Shown here: piece after piece, positions 17,824-59,279 of the stretch
Layout of the letters: every line of letters starts with the position of its first letter
How positions within the stretch are numbered: position 1 is the first letter of the stretch
Assembly (NCBI GenBank): GCA_036320915.1
Contig: JAXBDG010000009.1
Span: 1,922,001 to 1,986,000, forward strand
DNA length: 64,000 bases
Origin: Linnemannia elongata
Taxonomy: Eukaryota; Mortierellomycota; Mortierellomycetes; Mortierellales; Mortierellaceae
Direction of reading: 5' to 3'
The notes under the pieces: model-generated
Told to the model about the DNA's origin: nothing
Database searches by the model: none
What the model saw: only the letters and a program-made list of their open reading frames with translations
Made by a program: the position numbers and the translations under genes

Positions 17824-19281
17824 TTAGATCATCTTTCTGGCCTCAAAGAAGCCACGGAGATGACGCATCTGCCAGGCGCAGGTGATGGCCAAGACCACCA
17901 ACTGAACAATAGTCCATGTCACGGTGTGTCCGTTGGTCGCCTCACTCTTGTCACGGAACTCTCTCTCGTGGTCCTATTGACATTCATTGGGATAGATAGA
18001 CTTGTCAGCGAAAATGTGTTTCATCAAATAGGAATAAAATAAGCTTGGCTTTACATCCACGACATCCTTGCTCATTAATATTGAGGTGCTTACACGAAGG
18101 TATGACTGCTCGCGTCTGATATCGTTGACCTTGTGGTTCAAATCACGGACACGCTGGGCCAAGTCTAATCATCAAATTAGTGAGTTCACGTAACGAAAAC
18201 GACAATCGTTAGCATTACTCCCTTCCGACTTTCTGCGGGATAAAGACATAGAGCGCTTTCGCTATGCCTTCGTCCTTGCTGCGATTAAATTGAAAGGTTC
18301 CTCACCACTCAAGGTACCCTCAGAAGCCTCGGTAGCGTCATCCATAATGTCGCGAATCGCCAAGTCCAAGTTAAGTCTCTGTTTTCGATAGACGCCATAG
18401 GTAAAGGGTTATGGTTAGCAAGAGGATACGTGAGAGAAAGACAGATCGGCGAGGTAAGGAGAAAAAACGCGTAAGATAGCACACATCTGATCCAACGAAA
18501 CGGAAAAACAGCAAACTTACGATCTTGGTGGAACTGAACCATCCGGCGGTCGAGGTGAAGAGGCAGATCGCGTGCTGACCAGACTCGGCAGAGGTGAACT
18601 TGAACTGGCCCTTGGGGCTCAACTTTTGGCTGTAAATCCTGTTACCCGATGGCAATTCCTATCAATGGTTAGGAAGGGGAGAGGATGGTCCTTTAAGGTT
18701 AGAGAACAGGGCTGTGGGGAAACAGAACAAGCGACGCCCAAGTATGCCATAAAAACAAGAAAAAGATGAAAGATGGAGGGCACTCACATCGACGATGACC
18801 TCGATTCCGACCTCCTTGTTGTGAATAAACTTGTTGTGCTCCTCGCTCCACTCCTCGGCGGTATATTCACCTAAGCAGTACAAGGAAGCAACGGGGAAGG
18901 GTCTTGTCAATAGCCGTTCATCTTGTGGTTATGAATGCGAGCCTTCCTGGCCACATCATCTTGCCAACACGCGCCTCTTTGTGGACAGATCCTATGCATG
19001 TATTGCTGGCTGGCGTCCAGCTGTATTCCTTGCTTCGTCTCCATCACGTTCTTATTGTGATCGCTGTATTGCTAAGGCTGGTTGTTGCCACATCCTCGCC
19101 TCATAACGCCCTGGACAAGTCGAGTGGTCGGTTTACCTATGACCATGGTCTCCTTGGGGAGCTCCTCGGTGAAGCACTTTTGCTCGGAACCCTCGAGGTA
19201 GAAGTAGAGTCCAAACACGGAAGGGAGGATGCTAAGGAGCACCAGCAGGCAGATGCTCCAGCGGGTGACGTTGATGGCCAT
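17824..19281 (-). CDS. p24/EMP24-GP25L-Erp family cargo receptor (alpha/Erp-like)
   Basis: Type I membrane protein that cycles in COPII/COPI vesicles between ER and Golgi and selects cargo such as GPI-anchored proteins. Six exons: 19281-19137, 18870-18788, 18658-18521, 18378-18306, 18164-18094 and 17973-17824; 219 residues. Seen: signal peptide (residues 1-24, WSICLLVLLSILPSVFG), GOLD-domain start LYFYLEGSEQKCFTEELPKE, a long coiled-coil neck (LAQRVRDLNHKVNDIRREQ), one transmembrane helix (WTIVQLVVLAITCAW) and a cytosolic tail RHLRGFFEARKMI with the FF motif and basic residues typical of p24 sorting tails. The ATG at 19281 is chosen because it starts the signal peptide. A UPRE-like TGACGTGG lies 140 bp upstream. 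Confidence 0.94.
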
Positions 19282-19419
19282 GGCTGCGTTGTGTGTGTGA
19301 TTGGTGTAAAGGTTAAGTTGAAGCAAGTGAGTGAGTTGATGAGTATGAGAGAGGATGTGAAATAGGAGTGTGTGGGCTGAAGGGGCCTGAAACGAAAGCC
19401 GTCCGTCCAAATGGATCAA

Positions 19420-19427
19420 CCACGTCA
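19420..19427 (-). promoter_or_regulatory. UPRE-like TGACGTGG upstream of p24
   Basis: On the minus strand this reads TGACGTGG, the core bound by Hac1/XBP1-type bZIP factors. It lies about 140 bp upstream of an ER-Golgi transport gene. A single 8-mer, so only suggestive. Confidence 0.3.
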
Positions 19428-19613
19428 CACACACAATCGGGTGCAGGACAATGGACGCCATAATTCTCTTATTGGCTGAAGCTAACCATGAAATCTTTCC
19501 TAATATGGATTAATTTTTACAGTCAATTGACACCATAATACAATGAAAATAGGCACAATGAGATCATTTGACACAATACATTTATTCGCTGGCATTTTCG
19601 CAAAGCACTGCTC

Positions 19614-19817
19614 TCATTCGGGCCTTTGACTTGAAGATAGACGCTGTATAGCAAAGCTACTGTTTCTTGGAGGTACTGTAAGAGGCTTTCTTTTCTTTTT
19701 AGCCTCAAGCACATGGTACATCTTCTCAAGAAATGCTTGGGCATTCTCGCCCTCATTGGCCAATAAATCAGCCTGTCTCTTTTCAGCCCTCTGAAAAATA
19801 GCTCTTTGACAACTCAT
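19614..19817 (-). CDS. Unrecognised small charged reading frame (tentative)
   Basis: 67 codons starting MSCQRAIFQRAEKRQADLL with an amphipathic, charged N-terminal half. A possible 47-nt intron (donor after the LEKM codons, acceptor CTTACAG) would shorten it to about 38 residues ending in KITSKKQ. No family recognised. It may be a real short protein or chance. Confidence 0.2.
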   Translation of the reverse strand: MSCQRAIFQRAEKRQADLLANEGENAQAFLEKMYHVLEAKKKRKPLTVPPRNSSFAIQRLSSSQRPE

Positions 19818-20480
19818 TTGATGGACTCAAGTTTTCGGTTGATTTGACATATTTTATATCGCTCTATTCACTAATATATACGGCCGGCAGCCACTGCGTT
19901 GAGACCTTTGACTCCAAGCTGTTAAGTGGGAGTGCGGGGAGTAACGAAAAGAATGAGTTGACTTTATTCATATCACACGAAGGATGAAAGCTATAAAATA
20001 GCACCTGATCCGTGCTCAAGTCCTGTCACCACGGTTTACATGTATTGGAGGTACACTTCTCTTTTTTCGGGCTCTTATCTCATGGAATACTTCGACAGTG
20101 ATCAGCGCTTGTTCTCGCTAGCCTCGAACGCCAAGGTGTTTGCGACTTCCCGTTCTAACTTCTCTCGTTCTCATTCTTCTGCCCGATGCTTTTTGAAGGT
20201 GAAGACGGATATGCGGTGAAATACTATTCTCCACAGTCAATTAGATTGATATCACAACTGGTTAACTCTTGCACGAGAGTAAAGTCTCCACAAAAGCAAA
20301 CTTCCATGCACAGTTACATAAGCTTCCGTTATCTGGCCTATAACGCTTTTCTCGCCGTCGCGGCCCCTTAAACGCATGATCCTCACTCAATCACCCTTGT
20401 CCCAACAGCTTCACCCATCGTTCCCCTCTTCTCAATTCCTCACATCACCCCCACTCTCATCTCATCCGCCACTAGCCAAT

Positions 20481-23400
20481 ATGGGACTGAAGGGGTTCTA
20501 TCCTTGGCTCCGCAAGAAGAAAGGCTACCATCCCACGCTTCGTCACCCCATGCACCACCACCTGCCTGACGACGCCATTATTCGCGTGGATGTTTTGTCT
20601 TTCTTCACCAAAATTCGCGGAATCTACACCAAGCATGCAGACGACAAAACAAAGGCGCAAGCTATCCTATTCGAGCATCTCAAGAAATACGGCGACCCCT
20701 CGCACATGATGTTCTATATCGACGGCGCCCCTGCTCTCGAGAAGAAGGAGACTCACCGTGAGCGAAATGAGAAGCGAGCTAAGGCCCTCAAGAATGCCAA
20801 GGTTGCCATTGAGACGCTCGGGGACCGCATCAATCAAGGCAAGCCGCCCACCAAGCAGATGTTCAAGAATGTAGAGAGGAGTCTCCGTGGAGGATTCAAG
20901 TGGTCTCTTCAAGATCGGGAAGACTTCGTTCATTTTCTGCAGGCTCAAGAGCTCGATGCGCACCTTTGCAGGACCGAGGCCGACATTGATATCGCTGCAG
21001 AGTGCCAACCCAAAGACATTGTTCTGACTCAAGACTCGGATTTCTTCGCTTACGATTCAGTTACAACGATCTGGCGTCCTGTAGGCAAGTGGGACGACGT
21101 CAAGGTCTTAGAATACAGTAGAGAGGCGGTGCTGGCCCAGATACGACTGTCAACCACCAAGCTTACTGCCCTGGCATGCGTCTCGAGTAACGACCAGAAC
21201 AAGAACATTCCATCGATGGGGATTGCCACCAACTACAGCATTATAAAGGATCTACCCGACACAGGTAAGAACAAATAATTTGACAGCATGCCCATACCGC
21301 CTCTATTCTTTGTGGATATGGCCAGACTCATCATTACTCCTTTGGACCCTTTCTCTATTAGACGTGCCATCCCTGGTGAAGGAGTATCTCGAGAGTCCAC
21401 GCGTGGTCTGCCGCGATCAGGAAGGAATCGATTTCACGGCCTCTATTCTCGTGTTTACCACAATGACCCAGGAGATTGCTGCTCCAGCGGGCGTATCCTC
21501 TGTTCCGTCGCCGTCATCACAGTCAGTAACGCCTTTGACGGCCTCTCCTGCATCCATCTTATCGTACGAACTGCTCTGTCATCAGTACAAGCTGATCAAG
21601 GATCAGCATGCCAGAGCCAAGGAACAGAAGCGCCAAGGGAACTCGAGCAGCGAGAGGTAACACGTTAGGTGCTATGTGATTCTCTCACATGACACCTGAT
21701 ATGCTTTCCATGGCTTTCCCATCACTTACAATCAGTCTAACATGCTGTTTGCCTATTGCCGCACCCTTCGATATGCTCTAGCAACGCTAAACCCAATCGG
21801 CAGGGCAAGCACAGGGAATTTAGAAGGCATCGCGTGATCGATCGGCCTGCTCACCAGCCTCGAGTCTCGCAACAGGTGCACCGGCCGCGGCAGTCGTACA
21901 AGTCACGCGCAGAACCACAGCAACACGAACAGCCATCGATCTGTAAGCAATATGAACGAAAGCCCTACACGGCGGAGCAAGAGGCACGGTACCGGGAGTC
22001 GACAGCTGAGGCCAAGGGAAAGAAGGCGAAGAAGAAGCGACATCGTGAGACTCAGCGACTCAAAAAGGAAAAGGAGGTAGCCAAGAAGCCGCCGCCCAAG
22101 ATCGACGAGATGAACAAGGCTCAACTTATCAACGCTATGGTGTACGAGCATCCCCTTGTTTCCCTTCAAGTCGGCACAGTCAATGCCAACAGTAAGCGGG
22201 CAGCGGCAGCAACAACCACCAACGCCAATCAACTCCCCTCGTCTGAACAGCAAAAGCAACAACAGCAACAAGAGGTTTCTGCCTGCATTTTGGACATTGT
22301 TGGGCAAGTTCGCGCGACGAAGAGACATGCACAAGAGTTTTTGGGCACGTTCATCGAGACCGTCTTTGAGAGCGGTCTGACCGAGAATGACCGTATCATT
22401 CTGTACTCTTTGTGTCCCGTCGTCGAGTCCAAAATCCGTACGGTGCCTCAACCCAAGCAGGATTCTCAGGCACGCAGCAGCAGTTCCGCTGGCACTCCCA
22501 CGAAGGCTGAAGGCAACAAAGACACGGAGGATGAAGGCGACGAAGACGCGGAGGATGAAGGCGACGAAGATGCCGAGCCGTCTGCAATGGACAAACCCTT
22601 CTTTGCCTTTTACCAGATCCTTCTGGCGCATATCTACTCCCGCAAGATCAAGTTCAAGACGGTTGCCGAGCGGCAAGTTGGCCAGCTGCTTACACGTGCC
22701 ACCTCATTGGGCATCACTTTGCCCTCTGTTCCTCCACGCGACATTTCCTACCGAACCAACGGGTTGCTCGAGTCGACCACCAAGCAACTTTATCTTTCCA
22801 TCAAGAAGATGTATCGCAACGGCTCGGTCGCTCTTGAAAAGAAGGTAATGTGAAAGTTGTCAGTCAAAGCTTTGTCACGGACGAAATACAAAGAGAATAG
22901 CATTTATCAAAACATATTCCAAAACTAACGCTTTTCTTTCCCTCTACATTAGATCAACTCACAAGCGGATGTCCAACCTGGCACGGTACTTCCCAAAATC
23001 GACCCCAAGCTACCTGCCATTGAGAACTACCTACTTTTGAACAAGGCCACCGGCGGATCGAGGCGTATTGCGCCTCTCTCACCCCTGGCGCCTCGCTACG
23101 TTAGCTTCTCTGAGCGGCAGTTGCTTCCACTGTTCTGGTCTTGGCCAACCCTCAAGGACAAGATCCGACGGATGATGAACGAGGATCGCTACTTTCAGGA
23201 TCCGGCCATAGTTCCCTCGCAGGCTGACGCTTTGGACTGGTTAGCCAGGACGACGCCTGGTCGCCTTATAACCTCTTTCCTGTCGGATGTCGGTCTCCCG
23301 CCAGACAAGCACGACAAGGGCTATCGCAAAACAACAACTGTCATGGACATGGACGGCAAGGACGGCAAGGAAGGGCTTCGGGAACACCTCAAATGTCTGC

Positions 23401-24919
23401 GGGCTGAGACATTTAACCCCAGGGATTGACACAACAAGGTTTATGTCCTGAAGGGCTCGATCCGGACAAATGGACGTCTGCTGCAGCTGCTGGCCTACAA
23501 GCTGAAGGAACTCCAGTCTGTTCGGTACCTTCGTATTCCCGAGAACAAGGCCCCAAACCCACTCCTTACGACCATTGGTGGTACAAACCGTTATCTGACC
23601 GAAGCTCGAAATATCTTCTTCTCAGCTGCTGATGTGGAGAATCTGTTGGCTACTGATCCCAGTCAGGTCACGGTGTTGTCACTTGATTTGGGTACCTCCT
23701 GCATCGTTGGTGCCACCGCTTCGTTCCCACCTGGCCAAAGCCCTACCACGTTGGCGCGTCCCCTGTGTCAGGATGGCGGCCAAAAGAAGAGGAAGAAGAA
23801 GAGAAGGCGTGCCAAGCTGAAGCCTGGTGATAGAAAGCGGCAGAGGAAGAGGCAGAAGGCGCGCAAGCTGGGCGGGCGGTCTCTGGCGATTCGGTGCTTT
23901 GATCTGGTGGTCAAGCGAAAGGCCGTGTCGCGGCCCACAGACAGCTTTTCCAACTGGCTCGAGGACCGGCGGGAGAACACCATTGGACCATCTACCGGCA
24001 GAACTATTCAGAAGATTGAAACCGCCCTACCGCCTCTCAAGGGAGAGGGTGCCTCGTTTTGCGAGTATGTAGCAATGCGTCGAGCGTCGGAGGAAGACCT
24101 GGACACCTTTTACAACAACACCAACTTCTGGAAGCACAAATGGGATTCCAACATTTGCCGAAAGGAAGAGTACTACAAGGTTGCTGAGGGTTTGCTAAAC
24201 ATGATTGGTGGATCTGTCGGTAGGCCGAGATTGCCACACCAAAACGTCGTGATCGCGATTGGGCTAGCCAAGTTCACTGCTGTTCATGGCCCACCAGCCC
24301 TCAATGGCACGTTCCAGGCGTTTTTCATCAATCTGGTAGGGCATACTGTTGCAACGACTGTTCAGCAAGGTCATTTCTTTACAGGGACATGCTAATGTTG
24401 CTTTTATTTTTTTTTTTTGTCTTGACTTAGGCTCGTTCGTTGGGCTACCTTGTGGTTGGAATCAACGAATATTATTCCTCCAAACGATGCCCTCGCTGCC
24501 ATGCATTTGTCTGTGCGACGTCGGACTGGCGGACCCTTTACTGCACAACTTGCAAACGGTTCCTTCAGCGAGATGTTATGGCCTCCGAAAACATGAACAA
24601 TGCAACCAAGGGTCACCTGATCCACCAGCAGCGGCCGCACTACCTTCAGCCTCGGCGTCAAGACGGATCTTACCCGTGGATGGATGTTGCTGCTGGTGAC
24701 GGTAGTGGGGGTGGAGGAGGAGAAGCAGCTGGACCATCGGCTGTGGCCATGGACAGCAATGGAGACGAAGCAGGTGGTGGTGGTGGCGGAGGGGCAGTAA
24801 CAGCCAGAAAGAGGCGCGCCGCTTCGATCGTCTCAGTCGAGGTCCCCGACACCGGCATCTATCCCATGACTGACGCCCTCAGTTCTTCGTCCAGCCACAT
24901 GGGGAAAAAAGCGAAATGA
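20481..24919 (+). CDS. FEN1/XPG-like nuclease fused to a Fanzor (TnpB-like) RuvC nuclease; one in-frame TGA
   Basis: Five exons in one continuous frame: 20481-21264, 21362-21656, 21782-22844, 22953-24335 and 24431-24919; 1338 codons. The N-terminus (about 1-260) is a FEN1/XPG-type PIN nuclease: MGLKGFYPWL start, Asp37 (RVDVLSF), Asp81 (YIDGAP), Glu166/Asp168 (EADID) and Asp185/Asp187 (TQDSDFF). The middle has a basic helix and DEGDEDAE repeats (22508-22575). The C-terminus is Fanzor: a WED-like block RYVSFSERQLLPLFW, VYVLKGSIRTNG, RuvC-I SLDLGTS (Asp959), a Lys/Arg-rich stretch, RuvC-II INEYYSSKRC (Glu1188), zinc ribbon CPRC...CTTC, and RuvC-III QRDVMASENM (Asp1223). All six PIN acids and three RuvC acids are present. 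TGA at 23427-23429 (codon 873) interrupts the Fanzor part; the frame is open on both sides. Fanzors are eukaryotic RNA-guided nucleases; the role of the fused PIN domain is unknown. Confidence 0.8.
22508..22575. repeat. 18-21-nt coding repeat (acidic DEGDEDAE units)
   Basis: Tandem units encoding (E)DEGDEDAE three times within the linker between the PIN and Fanzor parts of the fusion protein; a flexible acidic spacer. Confidence 0.8.
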
Positions 24920-25060
24920 CCATAGCAGTTTCACAATGTAGGATGCTCCATAGCGTCTGTAGTTAGATATACATGCCTGTACGCATGTTCCATAGTGTAG
25001 GGTCACGTGAGCTCGGCTACTTCATCGTGGCCGAGGCGCAGCGATTACTCACCTCGGTGA
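24920..25060 (+). ncRNA. Candidate structured 3' element (possible omega-RNA region) behind the Fanzor gene
   Basis: Directly after the stop codon lie several complementary segments. ACATGC (24971-24976) pairs with GCATGT (24983-24988). CTCGGCTAC (25012-25020) pairs with GTGGCCGAG (25027-25035) with one G-T wobble. An outer pair, GTCAC (25002-25006) with GTGAC (25047-25051), encloses the second hairpin. Fanzor guide RNAs are typically encoded at the 3' end of the gene, so position and foldability are suggestive. No transcript evidence is available. Confidence 0.3.
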
Positions 25061-25852
25061 CGTAATTTAAGCGCCAATTGTTCTGTGACCATACTCACAC
25101 AATGTTTAACCTTTTGCTGCCCAAAATTATCCTAAGCATGCAACGGACTTGAACTAGCAAACCAGCGACCTCTCTGGGTTCCCAAGCAGGCAGACAGACA
25201 GGACTTGGCTGCAACTTTCAACAACCCCCTCTCATGTCTTTCATACACCGCCTAGTGTGCCGCGACATACTATATCCAGGTTCAATTGGCCATCGATCCC
25301 CTAGAAGGCACGCCTTCATTGGCGAAAAGGTGCCAGGATCTCAGAATCAGGATGATCGCGGTAGATCGATAAAAAAAAAATGAAACGAAACGATCGACTC
25401 GCTGATATCGACCTTCCTGATGGACAATAACATAAAGCATACCAAAGGAAGACCTGATCCTAGATATGCTGGTTGGTGGCGCCTGTCCTCAATGGCGTAG
25501 AATGTGCGACCATTAACGTTGCCGGTGACATCATCATCCGACCTTTGGAAAAGGGGCCAAAAAACTGGGCACATTCATTTCGCGCGCGTTATGTTGGGGG
25601 TTGGTTGCACATGAATTTCATTTTTCTGTCGCCGCTGACTCTTCTTTCACTTACTCTTGTCGGCTCACGCCCCTCTTTCTTTTTTGCCTCCTTCTTTCTC
25701 GACCGAACTGTTCACACCCTCTTTATCACACTCACGGTCTCCTTCCGCCTCGCAACCTCACCCTTCACTTCTCTTCATTTTCTCCTATCTTCGCCAATTA
25801 AACACCCAACTAAACAACCAACCAACCAACAGCCCAACTCAACCAGAGAAGA
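25061..25852. other. Intergenic region before the hydrolase-phosphatase gene
   Basis: Mixed-composition spacer becoming CT-rich from about 25600, the likely leader of the next gene. No gene recognised; a tRNA-like string near 25150 was examined and rejected. Confidence 0.55.
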
Positions 25853-28585: not shown

Positions 28586-28659
28586 CGCTCCTGGGTGGGC
28601 TTGAACCACCAACCTCCTGATTAACAGTCAGACGCGCTAACCAATTGCGCCACAGAAGC
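28586..28659 (-). tRNA. tRNA-Asn: tRNA-Asn (anticodon GTT)
   Basis: Minus-strand cloverleaf of 74 nt without intron. The acceptor stem GCTTCTG pairs with CAGGAGC (one G-T). The D-arm has TGGCGCAATTGGTTAGCGCG, which contains the A-box. The anticodon loop CTGTTAA has GTT at 28625-28623. The T-arm GGTGGTTCAAGCCCACC contains the B-box. A T-run follows 10 nt downstream. All features match eukaryotic elongator tRNA-Asn. Confidence 0.96.
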
Positions 28660-33321: not shown

Positions 33322-34829
33322 CTTGAGTTGGTGGTAGTGTTGGTTGGTGTCGAAAGGGAGGTTGTTGAGGTTGTAGTTAGAGTGAAGAAAGAAGAGTGGG
33401 AAAGAAGTGGGGGGCCAGGCCTTTTATGTATTGGAACTGACAGGAAAGGGGGGGGGGGGGGGAGGAACAAGTTTGACAGGTAGAAAAGTGAAGGGGACCT
33501 CGCTGGCCATGGTGGTTAAAGAACAGCATATGTTGATTGATTGGATTGGATTGATACAAACAAACAAATATGTGAATATGTGGGAAACCGGGGAAAAGCA
33601 AAAAAAGAGAGAATTACAGGGGGCACAAAGTCAACAGGTCTTCGTCGTCATCTGGTGTGAGAGCGTGTAAGTGTGAAAGCAGGTGGTGAATGAATCAGAC
33701 TCAATACTCTGAACATATGAAAAAAAAAAATGTTTAAACTCAAATAAAAGAAATAAAAATGACATTCTCTGAGTGTCTTTGGTTTTTGACAACCTTTTTC
33801 CTGTTTGTGTCTGGCGTCGGAACTCGATTCCATCAAATCGTCAGGCAAGCGAACCCAGCATTGACAATGTCTGTCTGGTAGCCTACTTTTCATCCACCCA
33901 CCTGTGCACATTCATTCTTTTCTCTTTGATCTTATCTCCTCGGCGTTGTTACCCATGTTGGCGATGGGTGAAGGAACTTGAAGGGCGCGCTGTACTTTTT
34001 AAAAAGTAACATACAAGACATGGCAAACGGAGGTCTTGACAGACCCCGAAAGGTACTCTCTCCCTCTTCCATCTAAGGGGTCGATTTTCTCTCCTTCTTC
34101 GTCTTCCCCAATTCAATCAGCGACAGACAGACTTGCAGACAAACAACAAAAAGTGATTCACACATAAAGACACAGACACACACATTTTTCATCTCTGATG
34201 ATGTTGGATCCAGACACCGCTGATGGGCGCATCCCATCACCCACTTTATCAGTCTTGATTCTGGTTTGAATGTCTTGTTTGTCATCACTTCTATTCCCTC
34301 CGGTCTGCCCTGACTGCCCTGTCACTTTTATCCTTCTCTTCTTCTCCCTTCACTCTCTCATACATACACTCTTCTCTCTCTCCTTACACATACTCATACA
34401 CCTTCACCCTCTCCTTCACATTTACCCGCTTCCTTCCTTCTCACCCACCCACCCCTTGCACTTGCACCCTCCTCCTCTCCTCCTCACCCCCTCGCGGCTA
34501 AAAAAAAGTCTGTCAAACTTGACAGCTCATCTACTTTCGGCGCATTCATCTTCGCTCATTCCGCATCGCAGTTTTCTTTTTTGACATTCTTTTTTGACGT
34601 TCTCGATTCATAAGACAACTCCCGACGCCCGCTTCAACCCACACCGACTTGGCGTTCTTCCTCTCTCTTTCCTTTAGTTTTTCCATTACTGACAGTTCTC
34701 AATTGATATAAACCAGCAGGGTCATCGTCCTTTTTTCCCACTTTTTTTTTCTACTTTTTTTTACTCACTTCGATCATTCGATTTCACACCTACATCCCCT
34801 GAAATCTTCTCCCTTCCCTCCCCTTTGGA
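33322..34829. promoter_or_regulatory. Divergent promoter region of the copper gene pair
   Basis: Shared 1.5-kb spacer between two divergently transcribed genes. It contains TTTGACA or TTGACA/TGTCAA sites at 33472, 33786, 34036, 34511-34524, 34579 and 34592 (the last ends in TTGACG). The site at 34511-34524 is a perfect inverted repeat TGTCAA-AC-TTGACA. TATA boxes lie near each start (33421-33428 minus, 34707-34712 plus). A 15-nt G run sits at 33448-33462. CT-rich leader sequence precedes the Ctr start. Confidence 0.5.
34707..34712 (+). promoter_or_regulatory. TATA box of the Ctr gene
   Basis: TATAAA 118 bp upstream of the Ctr start codon. The two neighbouring copper-locus genes have TATA-like elements at nearly the same distance. 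Confidence 0.5.
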
Positions 34830-36044
34830 ATGATGCTGCAATCGCTCGTTCCTTCCAAGGCTTCGGCCTTCCTCGTCGTCCTCCTGGCCCTTACCGTAGG
34901 AAGCCAAGTCCAAGCCCAGGCAGTCGACTGTCTGGTCACCCCCTCAGACCCCTCCTGCGTCTCCTTCGTTCTCCCTCCCGCAACAGTCACGGCTGATCTC
35001 GAGGCACTCTGCACGCAGATGCCCTACATGCCCGGTTGCTCCCTCTACAGCTCCTGCAAGGCCGCCTCCAAGACCGACCAGTGGTGCACCCCCTTCTCCG
35101 TCCTCGCCGACATCTGCTCGGTCGACATGCCCATGATGAAGGACTGCAAAAACTATGTCGCCCTCTGCGGCGCCGCGGCCAACCAGACCGCCACCTCAAG
35201 ACCCTCTGTCTGCAAGTCTGCTCCTATGATCGAAGCCTTCCCGACCACCAAGAACGCCTCGGCCCTTGTCATCGACATCTGCACTGAGATGGATATGGCT
35301 GGCTGCGAGCGCTGCCCCAAGCCTCCACCAGGTGCCTATGCCGCCAACTGCGACACCCTCGGCACTTACGCGATCCTCTGCAAGGCCATGCCCGAGATGT
35401 CTCAATGCGCGACCTGGAAGTCGATGTGCTCGGCTTCTTCTGCCACCGCCTCGTCCTTGAGCTTCCAGTCGTCCGAGTACTGCGCCGCCGGTGTGGGTAG
35501 TCCCGACATGAACCCTCCCGCCATGCGCATGTATTTCCACTTGGGTTTTGCCGACTATGTCCTCTTCGAAAAGTGGGTCCCCCGCAACCAGGGCCAGTAC
35601 GTTGGTACATGGTTCGCCCTCTTCTTCTTGACCCTCTTCTTCCAGACCATCTCGACTTACCGTACCTGCCTCGAGGCTCGCTGGGCTGAGGAACAGGCAG
35701 CCGAGAACGAAAACTCCAAGTCCGATTCCTCTGAGCGTCTTACCTCCCTCGGCGGAGATGGCAAGCACCGATCGTCGATTTTCATGCACTGGATCCAGCT
35801 CTGGCGCCAACCCTGGTCCCTGAAGGAGGTCAAGCAGAACGTCATCCGCGCCCTCTTGACCTTTGTCGAGACCACGCTTGGCTATGCATTGATGTTGGTT
35901 ACCATGACCTTCAACGTGCCTCTGTTCTTTGCCGTCATTGCCGGTCTGACCGTTGGATCTGTTGTCTTTTCGAGACAGCGTTCGGCCGGAGTTGCCCGGG
36001 GTGACAGCAACTCCAGCGCCACCGGATGCGCAGGCTGTGGATAA
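34830..36044 (+). CDS. Ctr-family copper transporter with a Cys/Met-rich ectodomain
   Basis: High-affinity Cu(I) importer acting as a trimer in the plasma or vacuolar membrane. Single exon, 404 residues. Signal peptide (about 1-29), then a roughly 200-residue ectodomain with paired cysteines and Met-rich copper-motif-like clusters (MPYMPGC, MPMMKDC, MDMAGC, MPEMSQC). The Ctr core follows: MRMYFHLGFADYVLFEKW, TM1 YVGTWFALFFLTLFFQTIS, a cytosolic loop, TM2 with MxxxM (LMLVTM) and TM3 with GxxxG (GLTVG). The C-terminus CAGCG is a cytosolic Cys cluster typical for copper hand-off. The ectodomain is homologous to the neighbouring protein at 32518-33321, so one probably arose from the other by duplication. 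AATAAA lies at 36089. The start at 34830 is the first ATG of the pair MM. Confidence 0.92.
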   Translation: MMLQSLVPSKASAFLVVLLALTVGSQVQAQAVDCLVTPSDPSCVSFVLPPATVTADLEALCTQMPYMPGCSLYSSCKAASKTDQWCTPFSVLADICSVDMPMMKDCKNYVALCGAAANQTATSRPSVCKSAPMIEAFPTTKNASALVIDICTEMDMAGCERCPKPPPGAYAANCDTLGTYAILCKAMPEMSQCATWKSMCSASSATASSLSFQSSEYCAAGVGSPDMNPPAMRMYFHLGFADYVLFEKWVPRNQGQYVGTWFALFFLTLFFQTISTYRTCLEARWAEEQAAENENSKSDSSERLTSLGGDGKHRSSIFMHWIQLWRQPWSLKEVKQNVIRALLTFVETTLGYALMLVTMTFNVPLFFAVIAGLTVGSVVFSRQRSAGVARGDSNSSATGCAGCG

Positions 36045-54101: not shown

Positions 54102-57100
54102 ATGTCTTTGGATACCTATGTCAAGGGTACCAAGTGCTGGTTCACAGATGTCCAAGAGGGCTGGATCAGCGCCACCCTCAGCACCACAGATGTTGCTGCC
54201 GACGGAAAAGTCACCCTGACTTTTGTGGACGATAACGGAAAGGTATGTCTCAGGAACACCTGCTGCGAGACACAGAATGGTCTGCTTTTTGATCCCATGA
54301 CTGTATTTTTACTTACCAGAACGTGCCTTTTTTTTTTATCTTTGTTGACAACTATAGGACCATGTCTTCTCGTCCACACTCGCCAAGATTGAAGAATCCA
54401 ATGGTGCCAACCTCCCTCCCATGCGCAACCCTCCGCTCTTGGAAGGCACAGAGGATTTGACCAACCTTTCATATCTCAACGAACCCGCTGGTAAGAGAAT
54501 CGAAATCAAAACTAATGATGTGGTTTAAATGCATGCTGTTGATCCAATAACTCCCTTCTAATCTGCTCGTGCCTTTCCACCCCTTTAATTGTCAATGCTA
54601 GTTCTGAGCAATATCAAGACGCGTTACTCTCACTGCAACATCTACACATACTCTGGAATTGTGCTTATCGCTGCCAATCCCTTTGCCCGTGTCAACCTGT
54701 ACACCCAGGACATCATTCAGGCCTACTCTGGCAGGAGACGTGGTGAATTGGAGCCCCATTTGTTCGCCATTGCCGAGGATGCCTACCGCTGCATGATCCG
54801 CGACGAGAAGAACCAGACTATCGTCGTCTCTGGAGAGTCTGGAGCTGGTAAAACCGTCAGTGCAAAGTTCATTATGCGTTACTTCGCCACTGCCGACGAT
54901 AGCGAGCGCGGCACCGATTCGTCTAAGACCGGTATGAGTGAGACTGAGGAGCAGATTTTGGCCACCAACCCTATCATGGAAGCCTTCGGTAACGCCAAGA
55001 CCACCCGTAACGATAACTCTTCCCGCTTCGGAAAGTTCACCGAGATTCAGTTCGACAAGGAGCGCAACATTATCGGAGCCAAGATCAGGACATACCTGTT
55101 GGAGCGTTCAAGATTGGTCTATCAGCCCGAGCTCGAGCGTAACTACCATATTTTCTACCAGTTGGTCGCTGGTGCCCCTCCATCCGAGAAAAAGGAGTTG
55201 GATCTCCAGTCCATCCAGCAGTTCAACTACTTGAAGCAGGGAGGTGTCCAGACCATCAACGGCGTCGACGATGCTGCCGAGTTCGAGATCACACAGCGCG
55301 CCCTTTCAACGATCGGTATCTCAGTCCAGGCTCAGTGGGATATTTTCCGTCTCTTGGCTGCCTTGCTCCACATCGGTAACATCCAGGTCACTGGTCGTAA
55401 CGATGCCATGATTTCCGATGAGGATCCTTCCTTGATCACTGCTTCCCGCGTCCTCGGCATTCCCCTCTCAGAGTTCAAGAAGTGGCTCGTCAAGAAGCAG
55501 ATCACCACCCGCTCCGAGAAGATTGTCTCCAACTTGAAGCCCGACCAGGCCTTGGTTGTCCGTGACTCCGTTGCTAAGTATATCTACTCGTCTCTCTTCG
55601 ACTGGTTGGTTAACAACATCAACGCCAGTCTTTCCAGCGAGGCCATCGCCAGCAAGATCCATTCCTTCATCGGTGTCCTCGATATCTACGGTTTCGAGCA
55701 CTTCAAGAAGAACTCGTTCGAACAGTTCTGCATCAACTACGCCAATGAGAAGCTCCAGCAAGAATTCAACCAGCACGTCTTCAAGTTGGAGCAGGAGGAG
55801 TACGTCCGTGAGAAGATTGACTGGAAGTTTATCGAGTTCAGCGACAACCAGCCTTGTATCGAGATGATTGAAGGTCGCTTGGGTGTCCTTTCCCTTCTTG
55901 ACGAGGAGGCTCGCATGCCCTCTGGTTCCGATCAAGGATGGTGCAACAAGCTTTTCACTCAGCTCGGCACTGAGAAGCACAAGAAGTGGTTCACCAAGCC
56001 CCGTTTCTCCAACTCTGCCTTCACCATTTCCCACTATGCCCACGATGTCACCTATGACTGCGATGGATTCCTCGAAAAGAATCGCGATACCCTTCCCGAC
56101 GAACTGTTGAACTTGATCAAGAACTCTGACAACGAGTTCTTGGAGGAGGTTCTCATGACCAGTGCTACCCTCGGCGCCGGAGGAAGCGTAAGTTGAACTT
56201 TGTGATTTCTTTGTTGCCCTTTTTGCCACAATTCCTTATCTACAATACAAGACGCTAACACCGACTTTACTACTTATATTTTTTTATACCATAGTTGACT
56301 GAGGACAAGCGCAAGAGTGTCATCAACAGAAAGCCTACTCTCGGATCCATCTTCAAGGGCTCTCTCATCCAGCTCATGGACACCATCAACTCGACTAACG
56401 TCCACTATATCCGCTGTCTCAAGCCCAACGAGGCTAAGCAGCCTTGGGTCTTCGATGCTCCCATGGTCCTCGGTCAGTTGCGTGCCTGCGGTGTTTTGGA
56501 GACCATTCGTATCAGTTGTGCCGGTTACCCCTCCCGCTGGTCCTTCCCCGAGTTCGTCGAGCGTTACTACATGTTGGTCAACTCTGAGCACTGGGGCTTT
56601 GACACCCAGAAGATGTGCTCTGCCATTCTTGAGGCCACCATTAAAGAAGCCGACAAGTACCAGGTCGGTCTCACCAAGATCTTCTTCCGTGCCGGTCTGC
56701 TCGCCTACATGGAGAAGCTTCGTACCGAGAAGTTGAACGGCTACGCCACCTTGATCCAGAAGAACGTCCGCCGCTTCGTTGCCCAGAAGCAGTACCAGCG
56801 CATTCGCAGTGCCGCCATCAAGATCCAGTGCTTTGCCCGCAAGGTCATTGCCCAGAAGGCCGCCCGCGCCCTTCGCGAGGAGCGCTCCGCTGTCTTGCTC
56901 CAGACCTTCTTGCGCGGTTACGTTCAGCGCAAGAAGTACGTCGAGACCCGCAACCACATCCTCCGCGTCCAGTGCCTCGTTCGTGCCAAGCAGGCCCGCA
57001 ACGCCTTCCAGAACATGCGCGAGACCAACGGCGCAACCAAGATTCAGCAGATCTGGCGTGGAGCTGTCGCCCGTCGCCAGTTCAAGAAGGAGTTGCACGC

Positions 57101-59279
57101 CATTGTTCTCGTCCAGTCGTGCATTCGTCGCAACAAGGCTCGCAAGGCTCTCTTGGCTCTCAAGGCCGAGGCCCGCTCTGTGAACCATCTGAAGGAAGTC
57201 TCTTATCGCCTCGAGGGAAAAGTGGTGGAGCTGACGCGAGCTCTGGACTTGGCGCATCAGCAGAACAAATCTTTCGACGCCCAGGTGGCGAGCCTCGAAA
57301 CCCAGGTCCGGTTGTGGAAAGAAAAGTACGAATTATCACAACATACCAAGTCGAAGGAGATTGCTCTTGCTGCGGAGAACCCCACTGTGCCCAAGAACGA
57401 GTTCGAGACTCTGAAGGCCGCCAACGTGGAGCTTCAGTCCAAGTACAACGAGTCGATCGAGAAGGTCAGGACACTCGACCAAGAGATCGCAAAGCTCACC
57501 GAGTCTCTGGCAAAGACCAAGGAGGAGATCCACAAGCTGGCCGCTCAAGCCAAGGTCAAGCCCGAGGACTCGGAGACGGTGACGGCCCTCAAGCGCGAAA
57601 ACCAGTACGTCCGCGAGCAGTTAGCTCAACTGTCAAAGGCTACTGGACGCGACACCTCAAGCTTCCCAGTTACGTCGAAGGTCCACTCCCCCCCATCCAG
57701 CAATAACAACGCCTCTCAGCCCCATTCGGTCCCCTCGATCCATAGTCAGCTTGCCCAGGGCACTATCGACAAGTACGAGAACTCGTACTCCTTTGCTAAG
57801 GAGACCCCTCACAAGATCGTCACCACTCTTCCCGCCGCCGTCCCCATCCCCCACAACGCCAAGGCCGCCCCCAAGGCCACTCGTAACCGCAGCAACAGCA
57901 CCCCCGACATTGCTGCTCTCGAGAACGGTACCCTCTTCAAGCCCCAGAAGACCACCAACAGTGTCTTTGACAACCTCGACAACCACAGCCGCACCGCCAA
58001 GACCATGTCGGGCGATGACTGGTCTCGCCGCCTTCCCCGCTCTCGCCCTAGCATTCACAGCCTGATCGAGCAGCCCGAGGTCGAGATCATGCGCATCCTC
58101 GAGGACGAGGAGGGTCTCCAGGAGGAGATCTTGAGCGGATTGATCAAGAACATGAAGATCCCCTCGCCCAGTCTGTCAAACCTGCCTTTGATCAAGGAGA
58201 TCATGTTCCCCGCTCACTTGATTGGTCTCTTGACTACACAGATGTGGAAGTACGGCTACATCAAAGAGTCCGAGCGTCTGATGATCAACGTCATGCAGGC
58301 TATCCAGCAGCAATCGATGGCCATTGTCGGCGACGATACCATCATCCCCTGTGCCTACTGGTTGTCGAACGTGCACGAGCTCTTGTCTTTGATCTGCATT
58401 AGCGAACAGGAGATTACTCGTGAGGAGTTGATGGCCCGTTGCGGAGACGACTACGACTGGACCGAGTACGAGCAGTTGGTTTCGACCGTCAAGTATGAGT
58501 TGGAGTGCCTCGAGTACAACATCTTCCACGTCTGGATGAAGTCGCTCAAGAAGCAGTTGAACAAGATGATCATCCCCGCCATCATTGAGAGCCAGGCCCT
58601 TCCCGGATTCATCACCAACGACTCTGGACGCTTCTTCAACAAGTTGATCGGATCCGGCCCCACCTTCAGCATGGACGACCTCCTGATGTTGTTCAACAAG
58701 ATCTGGAAGGCCATGAGCTGCTACTATGTTGAGCACTCTGTCGTCCGCCAGGTCATGACCGAGTTGCTTAAGATGGTCGGCGTCACTGGTTTCAATGACT
58801 TGTTGATGCGCCGCAACTTCTGCACCTGGAAGCGCGCCATGCAGATCCAGTACAACATCACCCGTATTGAGGAGTGGTGCAAGGGACACGATCTGCCCGA
58901 GGGCACCCTCCAACTCGAGCACCTCATGCAAGCCACCAAGCTGTTGCAGCTCAAGAAGGCCTCGCACAACGATATCGAGATCATCTACGACGTCTGCTGG
59001 ATGTTGACCCCTACGCAGGTGCAGAAGTTGGTCCAGAACTACATGATCGCCGACTACGAGGTCCCTGTCAGCCCTGACCTGATCAAGGCCATTGCCCAGC
59101 GTGTTGCCGCCAACGAGAAGAATGATACCCTGATGCTGGACGCCATCTCCCTCGAGGATGCCGGCTCGTTCGAGACCCCCGAGATCCGTGATGTTGACCT
59201 GGATGGTGAGCGCTACCTGCCCGGTTGGCTCGTCAACCTCAGCCGCCTCAAATCGTTGATGCACTTGGTCGTCGTTTAA
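54102..59279 (+). CDS. Class V myosin heavy chain (Myo2/Myo4-like)
   Basis: Actin motor carrying secretory vesicles and organelles toward growth sites. Four exons: 54102-54242, 54358-54490, 54602-56187 and 56295-59279; 1614 residues. An SH3-like N-domain (WFTDVQEGWISATL) precedes the motor with P-loop GESGAGKT, switch I NDNSSRFGKF, switch II DIYGFEHF, HYIRCLKPNE and LRACGVLETIRIS. Six IQ motifs follow (from about LIQKNVRRFVAQ to IRRNKARKA), then a coiled coil, a Ser-rich linker and the DIL/dilute cargo-binding domain (MFPAHLIGLLTTQMWKYGY, FNDLLMRRNFCTWKRAMQIQ, RIEEWCKG). Length matches class V. Exon 1 starts at the ATG at 54102. Codon use is strongly biased toward C-ending codons, which suggests high expression. 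Confidence 0.97.

Follow-up and report, generated by a model that had tools for sequence, protein, structure and literature searches.

Does the fungus Linnemannia elongata carry a single gene in which a FEN1/XPG-like nuclease is joined to a Fanzor RuvC nuclease, and what might such a pairing do? The question is raised by a stretch of 64,000 nucleotides (assembly GCA_036320915.1, contig JAXBDG010000009.1, positions 1,922,001 to 1,986,000 of the forward strand), referred to here as the window, in which a first-pass annotation based on the sequence letters had described one five-exon frame joining the two domains. We analyzed this locus together with the rest of the genome (51.1 Mb in 32 contigs) and with related proteins. 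The fusion gene is almost certainly real as a family, and its members are carried by a transposable element with inverted repeats at its ends, a preferred insertion motif and a candidate guide RNA scaffold. The copy in the window is itself interrupted.

A fusion gene present as a family

The exon boundaries of the first-pass annotation hold (Table 1), all four introns are of the GT-AG type, and the residues it had named lie where it placed them (D37, D81, E166, D168, D185 and D187 in the N-terminal half; D959, E1188 and D1223 with CPRC and CTTC in the Fanzor half). Its single open frame fails for the window copy. The exons join without a frame break, and an in-frame TGA at codon 873 of 1337, in exon 4, is the sole spoiling codon; it falls a little upstream of the Fanzor T(D/N)G motif and RuvC-I, and only read-through could yield the full protein from this copy. 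The TGA, the surrounding transposon and the candidate RNA at its right end were all absent from the first-pass annotation.

Genome-wide, exon 1 has at least 39 matches, eight at 97–100% identity (the window included), three at 89%, and at least 21 of the remaining 28 at 35–43%. The window gene is no chance assembly, since seven further copies in the same genome are 97–98% identical to it over exon 1 and the splice sites are all kept in the aligned copies. Four of the eight close copies are open to the last stop, two are frameshifted, one has its sole stop four codons before the end, and the last is the window copy with its TGA. The TNB zinc domain has 54 genomic matches, 53 of them over the cut-off. 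At 35 of the 39 exon-1 matches a TNB match follows downstream on the same strand, 2.9–4.3 kb away, and four lack one; the pairs involve 34 different TNB matches, and 20 are left unpaired. Between the window subfamily and the next (four pairs), the ratio of nonsynonymous to synonymous substitution rates (dN/dS) is about 0.14 for the XPG part, 0.27–0.31 for the linker and 0.17 for the Fanzor part, low values that argue for selection having kept both halves.

In 20 of the 21 copies whose exon 4 could be matched, an acceptor-like TAG opens the Fanzor frame (only L013, a damaged copy, departs from this), and the first in-frame methionine after this opening in the window copy is residue 788, inside the conserved part; the two frames are therefore most likely joined by splicing, as judged from these sequence signals. 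Some diverged copies have an earlier in-frame methionine in exon 4 (residues 716–746), and in the diverged copies L023 and L025–L028 a single frame matches the XPG part together with the linker (residues 1–715).

Sought in other fungi, the pair of XPG and Fanzor domains recurs in many copies and species, with fused annotations present in several of the latter. Among 23 related proteins, 21 match the window protein in both parts, some of the matches being short; P0014 is without the XPG part and P0023 without the Fanzor part. The genera of the named relatives presumably all belong to the Mortierellaceae. Pairwise distances in one half correlate with those in the other (r 0.92; 22 proteins, 231 pairs, Mantel p 2e-4), as expected for one old fusion. 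In Mortierella claussenii, two models with consecutive tags, EDD11_009077 (P0044) and EDD11_009078 (P0052), cover the halves separately; they match residues 1–603 and 682–1243 of P0017, and the contig is listed as 7,952 for both. The searches for relatives covered proteins sharing short words and scored the best ∼8,000 candidates, so that wider occurrence is possible; with the patterns used, no relatives were confirmed in viral or prokaryote contigs.

The N-terminal half as a predicted 5' nuclease

The FEN1-like fold that the first-pass annotation ascribed to the N-terminal half was borne out by structure prediction on a relative: the AlphaFold2 model of P0006 has an EXO1/FEN1/XPG fold over ∼280 residues at ∼15% identity, with EXO1 and FEN1 tied in the fold search. 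The Pfam XPG_I profile scores 17.1 bits in the window copy, below its cut-off of 24.9; among 18 relatives it matches nine with E no higher than 0.1, the best at 2e-6. Seven active-site acids of the FEN1/EXO1/XPG type, a count that leans on what we take to be the FEN1 numbering, are kept in the family, as are an arch lysine (19/19), an arch arginine (21/21) and, in 15 of 20 proteins, the N-terminal glycine. Acids and arch residues persist among family members at ∼30–40% identity. We therefore predict a 5' nuclease from the conserved residues and the modeled fold.

The C-terminal half as a probable Fanzor1-type nuclease

According to Yoon et al., DPG together with Ealt forms the Fanzor fingerprint, and a TDG motif marks Fanzor1. 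The Ealt signature (a glutamate, six residues and CxxC) is present in the window as EYYSSKRCPRC; combined with the zinc pattern it occurs in 16 of the 83 proteins compared, fragments among them, and in 14 of the 33 that reach 900 aa (long proteins without it include P0001, P0003 and P0019). The WED motif reads TNG in the window, and across 27 aligned proteins its middle residue is D (19), N (seven) or Q (one). The three RuvC acids are kept in 26/26, 19/20 and 17/19 proteins, and TNB is found in 14/18 and 24/43 aligned relatives, incomplete proteins included. P0001, a public L. elongata gene model, leaves out the zinc-ribbon stretch though the DNA encodes it, so the annotated protein is without a TNB domain. 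NCBIfam models for archaeal FEN1 and TnpB both match P0017, P0024, P0025 and P0006, four of the five proteins compared, all below the curated cut-offs.

Several points weigh against this assignment. RuvC-I reads DLG in the window subfamily (DGG in some relatives), unlike the published DPG, which is found in the relatives P0024, P0025, P0053 and P0063. The distance from the RuvC-I aspartate to the RuvC-II glutamate is 229 residues, above the published pattern of 120–160. No solved Fanzor chain is matched by sequence profile at E up to 10, and P0002, the fifth protein, matches neither NCBIfam model. The AlphaFold2 model of P0006 is weaker in the Fanzor half, and its fold search is filled by the XPG half. 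The architecture in the first-pass annotation stands on profiles, recurrence, the acids of both halves and the predicted structure of the N-terminal half, while the identity of the C-terminal half as a Fanzor1-type RuvC nuclease is supported by motifs and profiles.

Apart from the fusion genes, seven TNB matches in this genome lie 6–15 kb from contig ends, all pointing inwards and none paired with an XPG-exon match (Table 1). Could they form a subtelomeric Fanzor family?

The transposable element and its insertion sites

The element has imperfect inverted repeats of ∼20 bp at its ends. With terminal inverted repeats (TIRs) and an 8-bp target-site duplication (TSD) in a fungus, it is of a eukaryotic transposon type other than IS607. 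Among 15 copies with both ends readable, the duplication is exact and in register in 10; of the other five, L015 has 7 of 8 bases, L016 has nine bases shifted by one position, and the duplication differs in L011, L024 and the window copy. In the window, the octamer CACACAAT stands on both sides of the element, at 19430–19437 and 25096–25103, out of register, which shows that the duplication changed during or after insertion.

Allowing up to two mismatches, 14 of 21 left flanks carry ACGTCAC at -17 to -11, with 2 bp between it and the duplication that follows (18/996 elsewhere in the left flanks; binomial figure 2e-22, assuming independent sites), and a one-base shift adds L049 and L050. The right flanks hold no conserved motif. 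The 21 sites leave aside L054 and L057, whose ends are seen with the anchor pattern unmatched, and L009, L013, L018–L021, L048, L051–L053 and L058, in which the left end is missing, chimeric or too diverged. A form of the motif also occurs within the right-end hairpin, as GTGACGTAA at 25057–25065 of the window and as TGACGTCA in other families (right ends of L022/L025); copy L012 sits beside such a motif, in a place that also has another Fanzor-like stretch and partially matches the right-end model described below. On a preference for promoters the sites do not discriminate: an ATG frame of at least 60 aa begins within 500 bp at 14 of 15 sites, but also at 358 of 400 random points.

The left 300 bp of the window element (19439–19732) are ∼85% identical to those of L022 and L024, while the exon-1 proteins share only ∼40%. 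This stretch holds no shared intact frame, and its first 90 bases are not strongly structured; the similarity may mean that families have swapped ends, or that the stretch has a role as DNA. The left end of L009 is flanked by an additional copy, inverted, of the right end together with the tail of the gene (1501–1924).

Where an autonomous cut-and-paste DNA transposon would encode a transposase, the fusion gene alone was recognized: no second gene was seen in the element, its exons match no Pfam families other than XPG and TNB at E below 0.01, and the Merlin-type transposase PF12762 goes unmatched. The places read, which comprise part of the TIR-like matches, revealed no partner element in which matching ends accompany a transposase. 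Two partner candidates (C5:1163342 and C27:513322) are remnant-like and without a transposase, and 1.2 kb of a third, L062, hold an integrase-like stretch of retroelement type, judged from its letters. hAT and MULE domains exist in the genome. One hAT match lies 1.6 kb before a diverged XPG match (C12:1106938), the stretch between them having no end like that of the window element; another (C9:202412) lies between the two ends of a degenerate copy and is likelier nested, since eight others like it by score lie elsewhere or nearby. A minus-strand frame at 19617–19817, considered as a remnant transposase end, was dropped: it is not whole in sister copies, and its 25 genomic matches are partial except for itself.

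Table 1. Features of the fusion gene, its element and the surrounding sequence
Feature	Position	Strand	Remark
Whole element	19439..25090	+	5.65 kb, one gene and ends; identity with sister copies stops there
ACGTCAC motif, left flank	19422..19428	+	outside element; predicted target-adjacent motif core; fixed place in 14/21 insertions
Left TIR	19439..19459	+	
Exon 1	20481..21264	+	residues 1–261, most of XPG/FEN1-fold nuclease; fold and profile shown on relatives
Exon 2	21362..21656	+	XPG-like domain end, linker start
Exon 3	21782..22844	+	linker; part low complexity, part predicted helical
Exon 4	22953..24335	+	Fanzor part up to RuvC; intron-acceptor TAG 22950–22952 opens frame
In-frame TGA, codon 873	23427..23429	+	interrupts window copy
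RuvC-I Asp D959	23685..23687	+	in LDLG
Exon 5	24431..24919	+	RuvC-II, zinc ribbon, RuvC-III, tail, stop
RuvC-II Glu E1188	24467–24469	+	in exon 5
Zinc ribbon	24488–24553	+	in exon 5; Pfam TNB E 2e-9, above cut-off
RuvC-III Asp D1223	24572–24574	+	in exon 5
Candidate omega-RNA scaffold	25001..25090	+	three-stem junction; ends at element's last base
Right TIR	25071..25090	-	imperfect complement of left
Predicted guide	25091..25106	+	insertion flank; from layout and analogy with SpuFz1 (Saito 2023)
Weak emp24/p24 match	19072–19509	-	host-like surroundings
tRNA	28586–28659	-	host-like surroundings; Rfam
Ctr copper transporter	34803–36041	+	host-like surroundings
Myosin with IQ and DIL domains	54589–59276	+	host-like surroundings
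Inward TNB matches near contig ends	C2:8289, C3:12111, C6:6338, C32:6152	+	
Inward TNB matches near contig ends	C9:1447465, C27:2931747, C31:2724769	-	

A structured RNA at the right end

For the last 90 bases of the element the predicted folding energy is -45.9 kcal/mol (z -6.5); none of 200 shuffles does as well, and all 2132 sampled 90-mers of the window lie above it. The first 90 bases, used as a control, have z -0.6. The outer stem pairs the element's last bases. An RNA model based on 11 right ends recovers, at the ends of the elements, the right ends of families with ∼40% protein identity in exon 1 (L021 at E 1e-4; L020/22/24 and L023/25–28 at 0.01–0.015); it also has a match in L045 at 2e-7. 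Across 13 distinct sequences both bases vary in 8 of the 34 pairs, a count that none of 500 shuffles reaches and for which slid versions give 0–2. Rfam recognizes only a tRNA in the window. Some observations argue the other way: further pair types, one of five covariation measures, do not rise above shuffles (412 of 500), the covariation alignment was fitted to the RNA model, and the right ends of two diverged families have z of -2.7 and -2.2 with one stem missing. The structured RNA is a candidate omega-RNA scaffold.

How the two nucleases may act together

For SpuFz1, a right-end scaffold, a guide derived from the flank and conserved bases before the left end have been described (PMC10432273), and the right-end layout of the window element is the same. 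TnpB of IS200/IS605 has been proposed as a homing nuclease that takes its guide from the flank, uses the insertion motif as target-adjacent motif (TAM), cuts the empty site and lets the element be copied back (Mears preprint 2025, PMC11870625). By analogy, a right-end transcript made of the scaffold and flanking sequence would guide the Fanzor half to the matching empty site, which shows ACGTCAC-NN-target, with ACGTCAC upstream of the 8-bp target serving as TAM (predicted as ACGTCACNN or part of it). An occupied site would be spared because the element separates ACGTCAC from the guide match. The Fanzor half would cut the empty site, and the attached 5' nuclease would trim the 5' ends or flaps, steering repair toward homologous copying of the element (homing) and away from end joining. 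Because EXO1 produces 3' tails for homologous repair (PMC12071731), such a bias seems the likeliest role of the XPG half. The new part relative to the TnpB scheme is the 5' nuclease on the same chain. We infer the guide, TAM, cutting and repair steps, and with them the cooperative function suggested in the first-pass annotation, and we hold the whole scheme tentatively, as slightly more apt to fail than to succeed.

Against it stand, besides the stop codon in the window copy, the five of 15 copies lacking an exact in-register TSD, and the five of 21 sites at which ACGTCAC is unseen even with a one-base shift; two bases also separate the motif from the TSD. ACGTCAC may instead be what a transposase or a host bZIP factor prefers. 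A variable 8-bp TSD as guide fits poorly with other Fanzor1s, for which Yoon et al. place the TSD in the scaffold, and the step in which resection promotes copying is drawn by analogy.

The main rival is flap trimming, in which the 5' nuclease acts at the RNA-guided R-loop or on RNA, by trimming the displaced strand, removing a 5' flap after the RuvC cut or maturing the omega-RNA, and repair is not steered. FEN1-family enzymes work at junctions of single- and double-stranded DNA, the conserved arch residues and N-terminal glycine suit a threading flap nuclease, and the EXO1–FEN1 tie fits as well; the present evidence does not separate this role from resection, and an active site of the DNA type says nothing in favor of RNA processing. 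We regard this alternative as unlikely.

It is improbable that the fusion protein is the mobility enzyme, its two halves together excising and/or integrating the element next to ACGTCAC. The lack of another recognized gene, the lack of a partner or PF12762 match in the searches above and a one-sided target motif at fixed spacing, unusual for TIR transposons, would suit such a role, yet an 8-bp TSD with TIRs is typical of DDE transposases, the hAT and MULE domains of the genome could act in trans, and several TIR-like matches lie outside the places read. Elements with Fanzor only have also been described, such as SPu-1 and the SfAV element. Quite improbable, too, is a passenger XPG fold that binds DNA junctions non-catalytically while the Fanzor half does what it does in other elements: a fused domain can be structural and the linker is less conserved, but the seven acids and arch residues are kept across diverged members and the lowest dN/dS lies in the XPG half. 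That two neighboring genes were united by a guess of the gene model, as the separate M. claussenii models and the early exon-4 methionines of diverged copies might suggest, is hardly credible given the acceptor-like TAG, the late methionine in the window, the similar XPG–TNB spacing in 35 pairs and the fused annotations across several species.

Relation to known systems and implications

The fusion resembles the Fanzor1 proteins SpuFz1, GtFz1 and PpFz1 (Saito 2023, Xu 2024, Yoon 2023) in its TNB zinc domain, RuvC triad with Ealt, T(D/N)G motif and TIR element, as well as in the structured right-end RNA ending with the element and the conserved bases beside the left end. It differs in its length of ∼1340 aa, against the usual 600–700, with an EXO1/FEN1-fold domain and linker in front, and, relative to SpuFz1, in its 8-bp TSD and a target motif longer than CA plus TA (CATA). 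PpFz1 is likewise a Fanzor1 of an early-diverging fungus with an added domain (Xu 2024); its FRI, however, is a small RuvC insertion that binds cyclophilin, whereas the fusion adds an N-terminal nuclease fold. The XPG half shares with EXO1, FEN1 and XPG(RAD2) the fold, the acids, the arch Lys/Arg and an MG start, and is set apart by its low identity, its sub-threshold XPG_I score in the window copy and its fusion to a Fanzor-type nuclease. Unlike the fusion, TnpB of IS200/IS605 is prokaryotic and without a 5' nuclease domain, TIR or TSD. Engineered Cas9–CtIP fusions similarly tie a guided nuclease to a resection-promoting factor (PMC12071731), but are man-made, whereas the fusion is natural and its effect on resection is inferred.

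No such fusion is named in the passages of Bao and Jurka, Saito, Yoon and Xu. Literature searches, which left most subscription papers outside, gave no match for Fanzor with XPG or with Mortierell-, and the one match for Fanzor with FEN1 concerns cargo integration. XPG nuclease domains occur in Academ transposons, and none of the literature matches listed combine Academ with XPG.

We advance as a possible but doubtful history that a Fanzor1 became fused with an EXO1/FEN1-type 5' nuclease a single time, far back in the evolution of Mortierella-type fungi, giving a built-in gene-drive enzyme that would cut the empty site beside ACGTCAC and resect it so that the element is copied by homologous repair. 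Genome engineers link guided nucleases covalently to end-processing activities in order to bias repair; in this family such a pairing apparently exists in nature, with both halves kept by selection. With a predicted guide RNA and TAM for many copies, the family offers a direct test of how Fanzors benefit transposons, and it may be a source of editors with built-in end processing.

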